Shown: piece after piece, positions 1 to 27,572 of the stretch
How positions within the stretch are numbered: the stretch's first letter is position 1
Layout: every line of letters starts with the position of its first letter
Notes under the pieces: model-generated
The model's database searches: none
Seen by the model: only the letters and a program-made list of their open reading frames with translations
What the model was told of the DNA's origin: nothing
DNA from: Terriglobia bacterium
GTDB taxonomy: Bacteria > Acidobacteriota > Terriglobia > 20CM-2-55-15
Assembly: GCA_036496425.1 (NCBI GenBank)
Contig: DASXLG010000192.1
Span: forward strand, 1-32,974
Length of the DNA: 32,974 nucleotides
Direction: 5' to 3'
Translations under genes and position numbers: made by a program

Positions 1-37
1 AGGAACCACAAGAAGCACAAAAGGCACAAGCAAGATG
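1..37. repeat. CACAAGAAG-type repeat arm at window edge
   Basis: The first 37 bases carry CCACAAGAAGCACAAAAGGC followed by ACAAGCAAG. This matches the left arm of the long palindrome at 2643-2724 and resembles the arm at 5591-5608. Only one arm lies inside the window, so it may be half of a hairpin continuing to the left. It ends just upstream of the exported hydrolase start at 51. Confidence 0.6.
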
Positions 38-764: not shown

Positions 765-795
765 CCGCGCGTCTGGAGAAGAATACTTATTGAAA

Positions 796-893
796 GTTGC
801 ATCATTTCGCGAAGCGCGAGCCCGACAGGGCGAAGCCTCAAGTGAGGTTTCTGCATTTCAAATTTGAAATGCAGAAACTTCGAATGATGCAAC
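796..893. repeat. Nested palindrome element between convergent genes
   Basis: An outer inverted repeat (GTTGCATCATT at 796-806, complement at 883-893) encloses an inner perfect 32-bp palindrome at 847-878, GTTTCTGCATTTCAAA followed at once by its reverse complement. The two neighbouring genes converge on it (ends at 764 and 913), so as RNA it could act as a bidirectional terminator. There is no clear T-tract, and the nested design also fits a small non-autonomous (REP/MITE-like) element. No ORF of note lies inside. Confidence 0.65.
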
Positions 894-912
894 CTCCAAA
901 TAACCAGCCCAA

Positions 913-2628: not shown

Positions 2629-3915
2629 ATGTCAAACGGGAAGGGAAGGAACCCCAAGAAGCACAAAAGACACAAGAAAGTCCGGTCTTTCTTGTGTCTT
2701 TTGTGCTTCCTGGGGTTCCTTCCCCTGCTGTGTGCCGCTTGCCGGAGCCACGCCATGCCGGAAAAAAGTTTCTGGGCCGGGACTGTAGAACTCGCTCCGG
2801 GCGTCCATCTGCCGTTTCAGATGTATCTGGACCTGGAGGGGAAGAAGGCCGGCTATTTTCTGGTGGGCGAAGAGAAGACGCCGATCCCCGAAGTGGAATC
2901 CGCTCCCTCCCAGGTCGCGTTGAAGTTCTCCGAGTACGGCGCAGAAATGCACGGCGATTGGAACGGCGGTGGCCTGACAGGCGACTACATGCGGATCCGG
3001 TCGACCGGAACGAAGTCGTTCAAATTCACAGCCGCCCCGGAACGCCAACCTCAGCCGGCCGAGCGTGTGGACATTGCACCGGCAGGGAACTATCAGGTCG
3101 ATGAAACTACGGTCGCCAGGCTTTGGAAAAAGGACGGTGGCGCCTACGGAACTTTCATCGCTACCGACGGCGACTATGGGCTCCTCGCGGGACGGCTCGC
3201 CGGACGCGGCGTTCAGTTCAACCGGTTTACCGGATGGCAGGCGATTTCGATCATTCTCGGACCTGCGTGGAACGGAACGTTGCAGGGAAAGTATTATGCC
3301 GCCGCGAATGATAAGCCTCAGGAACTGGTCTTGCGCCCTCGCTCCGACCTTAATTTAGAGCTGCCTGCGGCCCAGCAGACCGTGATGAAAGACTCCGGCG
3401 CGGGATTTTCCTTCTCTGGTGTTTCACTCGACGGGGCCACGGTTCGAAACACCGATGAGCGTTTCAAGGGTAAAGCGCTCATCCTCGACATCATGGGAAC
3501 CTGGTGTCATAACTGTCTCGACGAGGCGCCTTTGCTCGAGCAGCTTCAGCGGGAATACGGCAAAGACGGTCTGGAAATTGTCGGACTCTCTTTCGAGATC
3601 AATGCCGATCCCGTGCTCGCAAAGAAAAATCTTCAGCTCTTCAAAGATCGCTTCGGCCTGACCTATACCCTCCTGTTCTGCGGAAGTCTCGACGACGAGA
3701 ACGTGAAAGCGAAGATCCAAGGCCAGCTGGAGCACTTTTTTGCGTACCCCACAACGGTCTTTCTCGATAAGAGTCATCAGGTTCAGTTCATACACAGCGG
3801 ATTCAACGGACCGGGAACTGGAGACCGGTTTCAGGCCCAGCAGGGGGAATTTCGCGACCTTGTAAACAAGCTGGGCTTGTATAATGTCGCGGCAGAGTCC
3901 AAACCAATAAAGTGA
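2629..3915 (+). CDS. Exported thioredoxin-fold (TlpA/redoxin-like) protein
   Basis: A protein of about 428 residues (from the ATG at 2629; a TTG at 2611 is also in frame). The C-terminal 160 residues form a TlpA/AhpC-like thioredoxin domain with the active motif WCHNC (Cys293 and Cys296), a FSFSGVSLDG strand before it, and the cis-Pro strand FAYPTTVFLD. The N-terminal 230 residues form a separate beta-rich domain I do not recognise. It should act as a periplasmic thiol reductant or oxidant. Its N-terminal export signal (Lys/His-rich, then Leu/Phe/Cys-rich, ending CAAC near residue 38, possibly a lipoprotein site) is encoded by a 38-bp-arm palindrome. Its stop overlaps the next gene's possible GTG start, so the two are probably co-transcribed. 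Confidence 0.8.
   Translation: MSNGKGRNPKKHKRHKKVRSFLCLLCFLGFLPLLCAACRSHAMPEKSFWAGTVELAPGVHLPFQMYLDLEGKKAGYFLVGEEKTPIPEVESAPSQVALKFSEYGAEMHGDWNGGGLTGDYMRIRSTGTKSFKFTAAPERQPQPAERVDIAPAGNYQVDETTVARLWKKDGGAYGTFIATDGDYGLLAGRLAGRGVQFNRFTGWQAISIILGPAWNGTLQGKYYAAANDKPQELVLRPRSDLNLELPAAQQTVMKDSGAGFSFSGVSLDGATVRNTDERFKGKALILDIMGTWCHNCLDEAPLLEQLQREYGKDGLEIVGLSFEINADPVLAKKNLQLFKDRFGLTYTLLFCGSLDDENVKAKIQGQLEHFFAYPTTVFLDKSHQVQFIHSGFNGPGTGDRFQAQQGEFRDLVNKLGLYNVAAESKPIK
2643..2724. repeat. 38-bp-arm palindrome (CACAAGAAG family)
   Basis: Arms 2643-2680 and 2687-2724 are reverse complements with a single mismatch (pairing position 2710), separated by a 6-base loop TCCGGT. The left arm contains CAAGAAGCACAAAAGACAC and the right arm its complement. 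It lies inside the first codons of the redoxin gene and encodes that protein's n-region and hydrophobic core. Related arms occur at 1-37, 5591-5652 and 19684-19723. Confidence 0.9.
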
Positions 3916-5590: not shown

Positions 5591-5652
5591 GGGACGAAAC
5601 CACAAGAGCGCAAAACGCACATGTCCTCTTGTGCCTCTTGTGGTTTCGTCCC
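5591..5652. repeat. 18-bp-arm palindrome (CACAAGAAG-related)
   Basis: GGGACGAAACCACAAGAG at 5591-5608 pairs perfectly with 5635-5652; the flanks CAAAG/CTTTG extend the stem after a one-base bulge. The inner part repeats the CACAAGAGGCACAAG theme. It sits 11 bases after the PQQ dehydrogenase stop and just before the VOC gene, so it could terminate or separate the two transcripts. Confidence 0.8.
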
Positions 5653-6771: not shown

Positions 6772-6841
6772 AAGGAAAATGGGGACGTCTCCCTATTTCC
6801 GCGAATTACAACGGAAATAGGGAGACGTCCCCATTTTCCTT
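6772..6841. terminator. Perfect 30-bp hairpin between convergent genes
   Basis: Arms 6772-6801 and 6812-6841 are perfect reverse complements around a 10-base loop; the core is GGGGACGTCTCCCTATTTCC. It fills most of the gap between the convergent VOC and M13 genes and stops two bases before the M13 stop codon, so it can work as a bidirectional transcription stop. The AAAATGGGGAC arm start is shared with the hairpin at 8901-8965, so it is also a copy of a dispersed element. Confidence 0.7.
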
Positions 6842-8891: not shown

Positions 8892-8900
8892 ATTCACCCA

Positions 8901-8965
8901 AAAATGGGGACAGATCACTCACATGTTTCGTTTCGAAACAGAGTGAGTGATCTGTCCCCGCTTTT
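8901..8965. repeat. GGGGACAGATC-type hairpin element
   Basis: GGGGACAGATCACTCAC at 8906-8922 is the exact reverse complement of 8943-8959, flanked by AAAAT and GCTTTT. A second hairpin (TGTTTCG/CGAAACA, 8924-8940) fills the loop. It lies between the two peptidase genes, which read the same way, so in the mRNA it is an intercistronic stem. It shares its outer sequence with the hairpin at 6772-6841. Confidence 0.8.
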
Positions 8966-8976
8966 GTTCCTTTTTG

Positions 8977-18059: not shown

Positions 18060-18193
18060 GTGTGTGAGCGACCCCCGGCCGCTTCGCGGCTGTCCCCCTG
18101 TATCAAGGGGACAGTAAATCCCGCAGAATGAACACGACCACTCTCTTCCTGATATAGGGGGAGAGCCGACGGAGCCGGCAGGGGGGCGCTCAC
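18060..18193. mobile_element. MITE-like palindromic element, copy 1
   Basis: A 134-bp gene-free element bounded by inverted ends: GTGTGTGAGCGACCCCC on the left and GGGGGGCGCTCAC on the right. Inside are nested stems, including TGTCCCCCT/AGGGGACA around TATCA. A second copy with the same ends is at 23584-23723. It lies between the ankyrin gene stop and the cytochrome start, touching the latter. No transposase is present in the window, so it would need one in trans. Confidence 0.7.
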
Positions 18194-18237: not shown

Positions 18238-19737
18238 CTACCTGCCTGACGCCGCTGCCGGCGCCGGAATCCCGTTCTTCGCCATCAAATCGCGAAGCAG
18301 TTCCGCGGCTGCCGCGTTCCCACCGCCGCCTCCGCGGCCTCCCGCCCCGCCACCTCCTCGGCGGCCGCCGGCTCCGCCGCCCTGAGCGATAGCGAGGGGC
18401 GTTCGCCCCTGTTTGTCTTTCCGGTCGAGCCGGGCGCCTTGATCCGCGGCGTATTGAATGATCGCCGTGGAACCGCGTTGAGCGGCATTGTGCAGGACGG
18501 TCTGGCCGTTGCTGTTGAAGGCGTTCAGGTCGACGCCATGCTCGACGAGCAGTTTGATGGCGTCCAGAGAGTTCGCGACCATTGCCGTCGTTGTATGGTC
18601 CTTGAGGGTAAGCGTTGGATCCGCTCCGCCATCGAGCAGCAGCCGCAGGACCGGCAGATCATTGCCCTTTGCCGCCCGCATCAGAGGCGTCGCTCCTTCA
18701 CCCAGTGAGGTGTCACCGACAAGATTGTTATGCCGGCCGATGATCGGCTTCCGAAGTCTGAGGTTCGGGTTCGCGCCATTTGCGAGCAGCACTTTTACCA
18801 TGCCGGCGGCGTCGATTTCATCGTGCAGCTTCGGATCCGGCCGCGTCATCATTCCGGCGGGCGTCCGCATATCGACTGCAGCATACAGCGCCGTCATTCC
18901 GCTACTGTCGGCCACATTGGGATCCGCTCCTTTATTCAACAGCAGGGAGGCGAGATCATAATGAAGATTAATGACCGCCAGCTGGAGCGCGGTTGTTCCA
19001 TCGGCATCGGCCGCATTGAGGTCCGCTTTCAAATCGGCCAGCGCCGCCGCCGCTTCGGCGGCATTTTGACGGGCTGCATACATCAGGGCGGTCCAGCCGC
19101 CGTGGGGCAATATAAATACCGCCATGCCATTGGTTTGATATTTGTATTCGGGGAAGCTCAAGACCTTGGAATGAACGTTCATGGCGGCGCCGGCTGCAAC
19201 CAGCGCCTGGACCGCCGCCGCATGATTCTCGCCGGCGGCCCACATCAGCGCCGTCTCGTCCTGCCATGTTTCCTTTGCATTGACTTCGGCGCCGTGGGCA
19301 ATCAGAGCGTTCACCACGCCGGCATTGCCTGTCCGCGCCGCCGTCATCAGAACCGTTTCACCTTCCGGCAGCGCGGAGTTGGCATCGGCCCCCGCTTTGA
19401 GCAGCGCTTCGACCAGCGCCGCATTCCCATTGGTAGCGGCAAGTGAAATGGGCGTGACGCCATAGCGGTTTGCGGCCTTGACCTTCGCGCCTGCGCGAAT
19501 CAACGACAGCGCGGTTTCGACGTCATCGTTGCGCGCGGCCCAATGAAGAGCCGTCATGCCGTCCGGTTCCTGACCGTTGACGTCGGGATGCTGCTTCAGC
19601 AGCGTCCGGACCAGCATCGTATTGCCCGACTTCACCGCCTCGATCAGATTTGGGTTGTTCCCCGAACCGGCGAAAAGGGGAACGAGCACAAGAAGCACAA
19701 GAAGCACAACAGACACCAGAAAGTAATGCCTCTTCAT
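18238..19737 (-). CDS. Secreted ankyrin-repeat protein
   Basis: A 499-residue protein with a signal peptide (core FLVSVVLLVLLVLVPLFAG) followed by ankyrin repeats from about residue 28 to 450, with typical units such as DGMTALHWAAR, YGVTPISLAATNGN, GETVLMTAARTGN and GQTVLHNAAQRG. About ten units are visible, some degenerate (around 190-215 and 300-330). Ankyrin repeats bind protein partners. The C-terminus has a Gly/Arg-rich tract (about 455-475) and a final short helix. The signal peptide's hydrophobic core is encoded by tandem GTGCTTCTT units of the CACAAGAAG repeat family. Its ATG overlaps the DUF1552 stop by four bases (ATGA), so the two are translationally coupled and the ankyrin protein probably works with DUF1552 and DUF1592. 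Confidence 0.9.
   Translation of the reverse strand: MKRHYFLVSVVLLVLLVLVPLFAGSGNNPNLIEAVKSGNTMLVRTLLKQHPDVNGQEPDGMTALHWAARNDDVETALSLIRAGAKVKAANRYGVTPISLAATNGNAALVEALLKAGADANSALPEGETVLMTAARTGNAGVVNALIAHGAEVNAKETWQDETALMWAAGENHAAAVQALVAAGAAMNVHSKVLSFPEYKYQTNGMAVFILPHGGWTALMYAARQNAAEAAAALADLKADLNAADADGTTALQLAVINLHYDLASLLLNKGADPNVADSSGMTALYAAVDMRTPAGMMTRPDPKLHDEIDAAGMVKVLLANGANPNLRLRKPIIGRHNNLVGDTSLGEGATPLMRAAKGNDLPVLRLLLDGGADPTLTLKDHTTTAMVANSLDAIKLLVEHGVDLNAFNSNGQTVLHNAAQRGSTAIIQYAADQGARLDRKDKQGRTPLAIAQGGGAGGRRGGGGAGGRGGGGGNAAAAELLRDLMAKNGIPAPAAASGR
19684..19723. repeat. CACAAGAAG tandem repeat inside signal-peptide codons
   Basis: The + strand reads GAGCACAAGAAGCACAAGAA and then GCACAACAGACACCAGAAAG. 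This is the CACAAGAAG arm of the family also seen at 1-37 and 2643-2680, here without its complementary arm. Read on the - strand it codes VLLVLLV, the core of the ankyrin protein's signal peptide. Confidence 0.75.
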
Positions 19738-23583: not shown

Positions 23584-23723
23584 GTGTGTGACTGACCCCC
23601 TGCCGCCGCTTCGCGTCGGCTGTCCCTCTGTATCAGGGGGACAGCCGAAAGTAGCTGTTTGTCTAACTGTCCCCCTGTCAAGGGGGACAGCCGGCCGCAC
23701 GGCCGGCAGGGGGTCGCTTACAC
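23584..23723. mobile_element. MITE-like palindromic element, copy 2
   Basis: A 140-bp element with ends GTGTGTGACTGACCCCC and GGGGGTCGCTTACAC, the same family as 18060-18193. It contains strong internal stems: CTGTCCCTCTG / CAGGGGGACAG and CTGTCCCCCTG / CAGGGGGACAG-like pairs, plus GGCCGCACGGCC near the right end. It has no ORF and lies between the divergent DUF1592 and TonB genes. Confidence 0.72.
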
Positions 23724-26977: not shown

Positions 26978-27386
26978 TTACAGGGCGACGCGGATGATGG
27001 GATCACTCCAGCCGGTATAACCGTTCGGAGTGACGGCGCGGGCTTGAAAGACGTAGGTGGTGGCGGGAGTAAGACCGGCGATCGTCGTCGCAGATCTCAC
27101 CTGGGCGATTGGCAGGGTCGTCCATGACGCCGGAGTGCCGCCGCCCGGAGGCACCACACCCCATTGCACGAGGTAGCGGACCGCGCCCGCAATTTTCACG
27201 AGTTTGGCCTTGATGACGCCGTGCTCGGGACCCGAAGTAAGCGAACGGAAGGCTTCGAAACCGGCGACTTCTTCGTCCTGGTAGACGTCGCAGCCTGGAA
27301 GCCGGGAACACAAAGATCGTGGCTGACGCGGTAAAGCGGCTTCCCATTGACGTCGAGGAACCGGCCGGCTTCCGGCTGGACGGAAT
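26978..27386 (-). pseudogene. Frameshifted fragment of a fibronectin-III-type protein
   Basis: The C-terminal part reads as an FN3-like domain: a strand KAKLVKIAGAVRYLVQWG, then TTIAGLTPATTYVFQARAV and a closing TGWSDP motif. Upstream the coding signal changes frame near 27290-27300: residues like FLDVNGKPLYRVSHDL are in another frame and continue into DVYQDEEVAGFEAFRSL only after a shift. No start codon, signal peptide or ribosome site is visible, and the 20-bp palindrome array begins immediately upstream. I read it as a truncated, decayed gene of an extracellular binding protein; the parent function is unknown. Confidence 0.55.
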
Positions 27387-27392
27387 CCGACC

Positions 27393-27572
27393 ATGTACGG
27401 TTGCATTTTGGAATGCACGCGTACATTTGCGAATGTACGGAAACATTCGCAAATGTATGGATACATTGGCGAATGTAAGCCTGCAATCGGGAATACAGCG
27501 ATACATTGGCGAATGCAGGGATACATCGGCGGATGTATGCTTACATTCGTGAATGCAGCAATACATCTGGAA
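27393..27572. repeat. Nine-unit 20-bp array of palindromic repeats
   Basis: Nine exact 20-bp units (27393, 27413, 27433, and so on to 27553) follow a consensus near ATGTANGGATACATTGGCGA. At each junction the end of one unit and the start of the next form a 6-bp stem with a 4-base loop, for example TACATT-TGCG-AATGTA at 27422-27437 and TACATT-GGCG-AATGTA at 27462-27477. Stem positions change in a paired way: TGCATT/AATGCA at 27402-27417 and TACATC/GATGTA at 27522-27537. Units 5 and 9 are degenerate. No spacers are present. Confidence 0.88.

Follow-up and report, generated by a model that had tools for sequence, protein, structure and literature searches.

Signal peptides evolve fast and share no ancestry, but where new ones come from is rarely visible. 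The start of a redoxin gene in a draft genome of a Terriglobia bacterium (Acidobacteriota; GCA_036496425.1) raises the question of whether a high-copy palindromic repeat can become an export signal. The window analysed is a whole contig of this genome (DASXLG010000192.1, 32,974 nt, here contig C192); the genome comprises 6.16 Mb in 407 contigs. The nearest named relatives holding the redoxin are Acidobacteria MAGs (gp5 AA68; 13_1_20CM_2_55_15). In the preliminary description it was proposed that the palindrome has been exapted as the signal peptide of the redoxin and that repeats of this family could be a portable source of export signals. The features of the window are listed in the table.

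Features of the window (positions in the 32,974-nt contig)
Position	Strand	Feature
7..29	+	half copy of the repeat cut by the contig end, upstream of an esterase that keeps its own signal (not exapted)
781..900		another palindromic repeat (..GTTTCTGCATTTCAAATTTGAAATGCAGAAAC..)
2629..3915	+	redoxin / AhpC-TSA (ResA/TlpA-like) gene (PF00578, PF08534; NCBIfam); start at ATG 2629 inferred, not 2755
2629..2739	+	predicted lipoprotein signal peptide of the redoxin (MSNGKG...LLCAA), n- and h-regions from the repeat, lipobox end native
2643..2680	+	left arm of the palindrome; encodes the Lys/His-rich n-region (GRNPKKHKRHKK)
2687..2724	+	right arm of the palindrome; encodes the hydrophobic core (SFLCLLCFLGFLP)
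2740..2742	+	lipobox cysteine (+1), position shared with orthologues
5625..5645	-	partial, intergenic copy upstream of a glyoxalase-family gene with its own twin-Arg-type N-terminus (not exapted)
6772..6841		perfect palindrome with 30-bp arms, GGGGACAG-like motif
8899..8966; 18087..18114; 23617..23644		further inverted or dispersed repeats with GGGGACAG-like motifs near gene ends and starts
18238..19737	-	exported ankyrin-repeat protein using the repeat-derived core; homologues in relatives have other signal peptides
19684..19723	-	right-arm units of the same repeat forming the signal core of the ankyrin-repeat protein (MKRHYFLVSVVLLVLLVLVPLFAG)
26978..27526	-	ORF with an N-terminal Met/Tyr/Cys-rich stretch
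27393..27572		eight diverged 20-bp tandem units (ATGTACGG.. type) supplying that stretch

The palindrome itself is confirmed. It has 38-nt arms and a 6-nt loop, its predicted folding energy as RNA is −69 kcal/mol, and the repeat search extends it to 58-nt arms at 84% (2626-2741). It encodes codons 6-32 of the redoxin and reads MSNGKGRNPKKHKRHKKVRSFLCLLCFLGFLPLLCAACRSHAMPEK in frame from ATG 2629, as stated in the preliminary description; the whole N-terminus is MSNGKGRNPKKHKRHKKVRSFLCLLCFLGFLPLLCAAC followed by RSHAMPEK. No RNA families were found in the window. The 23-nt arm pattern with up to 3 mismatches has 118+120 hits in the genome, whereas the reversed control pattern has none. Full copies read GGGAAGGAAC(C)ACAAGAAGCACAARAGGCACAAGA, loop and reverse complement. 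It could be argued that ordinary signals, which are typically K/R-rich and then L-rich, merely resemble the repeat in amino acid composition. This is refuted at the DNA level by the nucleotide identity of the arms, mostly with 0-3 mismatches in 23 nt, and by the presence of both strands of the palindrome in many cases.

The signal of the ankyrin gene, said to be built from the same units, consists of right-arm units only, with no left arm (19687-19718). Other statements of the preliminary description needed correction. The copy upstream of the esterase at 51 is only a neighbour, since this gene has its own ordinary signal (MKNLLFIAAMIILLAQPGRAE). The claim that any such palindrome codes for Lys/His on one arm and Leu/Val/Phe/Cys on the other is true in some frames only: the left arm reads KKH, TRS or QEA and the right arm LCF, LVL or CAS.

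Does the redoxin start at ATG 2629 or at 2755? Its N-terminus has the elements of a lipoprotein signal, with an n-region charge of +9, an h-region KD of 2.92 and ..CAAC at residue 38. The same-genus orthologues (52-57% identity) lack the element. The orthologue in relative G003 has the normal lipoprotein signal MKSKAVLHKRWLLGTVAAVYVVLVLLALLFLSAC, ending in LFLSAC, followed by HRAMPEQ, and that in G004 has ..FLLLALLVLAAC, ending in LVLAAC, followed by SKAMPEQ, with a different GC-rich palindrome just upstream. The orthologues share only the ..A[CA]C/..AMPE junction. Many further orthologues, mostly from Ignavibacteria/Bacteroidota MAGs, also carry a lipobox Cys just before the [AP].PE-type mature start. 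The protein is thus an ancestral lipoprotein, in which the repeat has taken over the n- and h-regions while the native lipobox end remains. A start at 2755 is unlikely because it would discard the conserved Cys. On the other hand, a near-perfect hairpin inside the first codons could hinder translation.

To find out whether this case is unique, we took 60 stretches chosen by the repeat alone, blind to gene context (0.89 Mb with the window), and called genes with a codon-usage model. Of 92 elements, 43 are in tandem gaps, 18 in convergent and 5 in divergent ones, 7 are at edges and 19 overlap a called gene, all at gene ends and none in the middle. After inspection, 14 were found to supply the N-terminus of an exported protein, and a targeted search of the rest of the genome added five. 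A strict lipobox pattern missed some repeat-derived lipoproteins, and orthologues were therefore used instead. The 19 genes encode LptE, PagL, three solute-binding lipoproteins (Peripla_BP_2, NMT1 and SBP_bac_5), an SLT lytic transglycosylase, a cytochrome c, two PSD/PSCyt proteins, M1 and M20 peptidases, the redoxin, two acidobacterial VWFA proteins, three ankyrin proteins and two proteins without a Pfam match. The extracytoplasmic families LptE, PagL, SBP_bac_5, Peripla_BP_2, NMT1, SLT, cytochrome c and PSD/PSCyt are recognised independently of the signal.

For nine of these families, relatives in the same GTDB family lack this repeat at the N-terminus and carry unrelated but normal signals with conserved mature parts, although orthology is less sure for the ankyrin proteins, which were compared with homologues in a family rich in paralogues. 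LptE, for example, has ..LVLLVFLALLPGC followed by GYRLA in this genome (G000), against ..CLAASGC followed by GYHLA and ..VSLAGC followed by GYRLA. In the M20 case the upstream gene is conserved in four relatives and the start codon ATGAAGACC in one of them (G002); right after the upstream stop codon the palindrome stands where the others have their n/h-region. This also argues against misassembly. Short repeats might have joined unrelated contigs in a metagenome-type draft, and some contigs do end inside a repeat copy (C192, C259, C260). However, both flanks belong to the same orthologous locus in the M20 case and in the recX-lptE region in G005, and 19 in-frame joins to exported genes only would not arise by misjoining. 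An assembly artefact is therefore very unlikely.

Among genes with an element at their 5' side in the sample, 14 of 26 exported genes but 0 of 28 others use it as N-terminus (Fisher p=3e-6). Exported status and start codons were assigned by hand with knowledge of the protein family, which favours this contrast, and three non-exported genes were moved to a downstream GTG start. Before two non-exported genes were moved, the count was 2 of 28 (p=1.8e-4). Two apparent non-exported overlaps (an HMG-CoA-lyase-like gene and an AAA ATPase) and the RecX neighbour have plausible GTG starts downstream of the element. Right arms inside coding regions are in the LCF frame in 9 cases, LVL in 5 and CAS in 0, whereas those upstream of starts are distributed 20, 17 and 17, so the hydrophobic frames are selected.

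These relocated starts bear on the possibility that the repeat is an intergenic REP-like element and that the true starts generally lie downstream. Downstream starts are indeed plausible for several neighbours (DUF305 in locus L035, RecX, PurN and the HMG-CoA-lyase-like gene). Nevertheless, the orthologues of the redoxin, LptE, M1 and BtuF-like proteins place the lipobox or cleavage site upstream of the alternative starts, and without the repeat these proteins would have no signal. We consider misplaced starts very unlikely as a general explanation.

Why does the repeat occur there? Copies as a whole are not enriched at gene 5' ends but favour 3' ends, and divergent regions are depleted (5/66 vs 82/365). 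In tandem gaps the copies lie a median 17 nt after the upstream stop and 43 nt before the next start, closer to the stop in 32 of 42 untied cases. In 13 of 19 exapted cases the repeat-coded peptide begins −4 to +28 nt from a same-strand upstream stop. The simplest reading is that a normal post-stop position in a tight operon happens to be the signal region of the next gene. The redoxin copy, 308 nt after the upstream stop, does not fit this. LptE and RecX share one divergent element, which is read as signal by LptE only.

Taken together, these data support with good confidence the explanation that a repeat of about 60-85 bp has repeatedly become the n- and h-regions of predicted Sec signal peptides. 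Its arms consist of 9-nt GCACAARRR units, so each arm stays in one reading frame, and because the arms are reverse complements, a Lys/Arg-rich first arm is followed by a Leu/Val/Phe/Cys second arm, so that in most frames the translation resembles a signal peptide. If the gene needs export, the repeat probably replaces the old n- and h-regions while the native cleavage site or lipobox is kept; if the gene is cytosolic, such insertions may be lost or the start codon stays downstream. That the peptides work as signals, the order of events and the way the repeat moves are inferred from sequence and orthology, without a signal-peptide predictor, expression or localisation data, and replacement rather than simple insertion is not explained. 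When an element does enter a 5' coding region, the gene is an exported one in every sampled case. A portable source of export signals is thus supported as a recurrent outcome and not as a targeting preference.

It remains possible, though we regard it as the less likely alternative, that the repeat inserts anywhere near gene starts and that signal-peptide regions are simply the only coding place that survives it, with no benefit and no special supply of signals. The absence of elements from the middle of genes in the sample is in agreement with this, as are the GC-rich palindromes of other families in or next to the n-region of signal peptides of the BtuF-like gene in G001 and G003 and of the redoxin gene in G004. 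However, the exapted copies do not merely sit beside a native signal: the native n/h-regions are gone and the repeat is the only hydrophobic stretch. This alternative differs in evolutionary cause, not in outcome.

A second palindrome family does the same in three sister species. In G002 the VWFA orthologue has a near-perfect palindrome of ACACAAAG units as its signal (MKHKDTKTQRHKERP...AAFLCAFVSLCLCVSYAQQ), and a TPR protein and another exported protein do likewise; G003 has MKDKDIKTQRNGKRILIWIVSLCLCVFVVPSLYAQ and the G005 VWFA orthologue a decayed version. Exaptation has thus recurred with different elements, twice in orthologues of genes (both VWFA) that use the first family in G000. In contrast, none of 37 elements of the first repeat in a distant lineage (f7:g10) enters a gene start, so the phenomenon is not a general property of the repeat. 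A tentative extension, slightly less likely than not, is that palindromic repeats with a purine-rich arm act as a mobile reservoir of ready-made Sec signals, in which the reverse-complement relation of Lys and Leu/Phe codons makes either orientation a potential signal and different repeat families have re-supplied signals to the same genes.

One earlier repeat-derived signal peptide was found in the literature, the Yersinia palindromic sequence (RU-2) in YPO1552 (Delihas 2007, PMC2759123; reviewed in PMC2229807). It is one described locus with a 168-bp element and a signal partly from the repeat, whereas here at least 19 genes in one genome, including conserved genes such as lptE, both arms and two repeat families are involved. 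The scale, the use of both arms, the restriction to exported genes and the recurrence with a second family appear to be new. Rickettsia palindromic elements (PMC2229807; PMC10969869) are similarly inserted in frame in many unrelated genes and translated, but they are 105-150 bp long, carry their own ORF and enter protein bodies, whereas the coding overlaps sampled here lie only at gene ends and the 5' ones become predicted export signals. Like REP/REPIN elements with RAYT transposases (PMC3733652; PMC3116915; PMC2817692), the repeat is high-copy, palindromic, mostly intergenic in the sample and biased to gene 3' ends. However, copies read GGGAAGGAAC(C)ACAAG... at the ends, by inspection, with no GTAG or CGTC tag in the consensus, and the only Y1_Tnp gene found (PF01797, contig C15) has no element within its 3.3-kb locus. 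The coding palindromes of nematomorph mitochondria (PMC6649704) are also inverted repeats whose two arms are both translated, but in different genomes and with no export role.

The replacements in one genome make the origin of export signals directly testable, give palindromic repeats a concrete coding fate and warn annotators that gene starts inside such repeats may be real. A possible intermediate is the DUF305 lipoprotein gene (L035:567-669), in which a full repeat-coded signal-like ORF (MKHKRHKKHRVALVPLVLLVFLP) lies in frame upstream of an intact native signal. The other palindromic repeat, at 781-900, is also nested beside the first family on contig C7 of the genome (locus L001) and occurs upstream of the VWA gene in locus L086, where it may provide the n-region.
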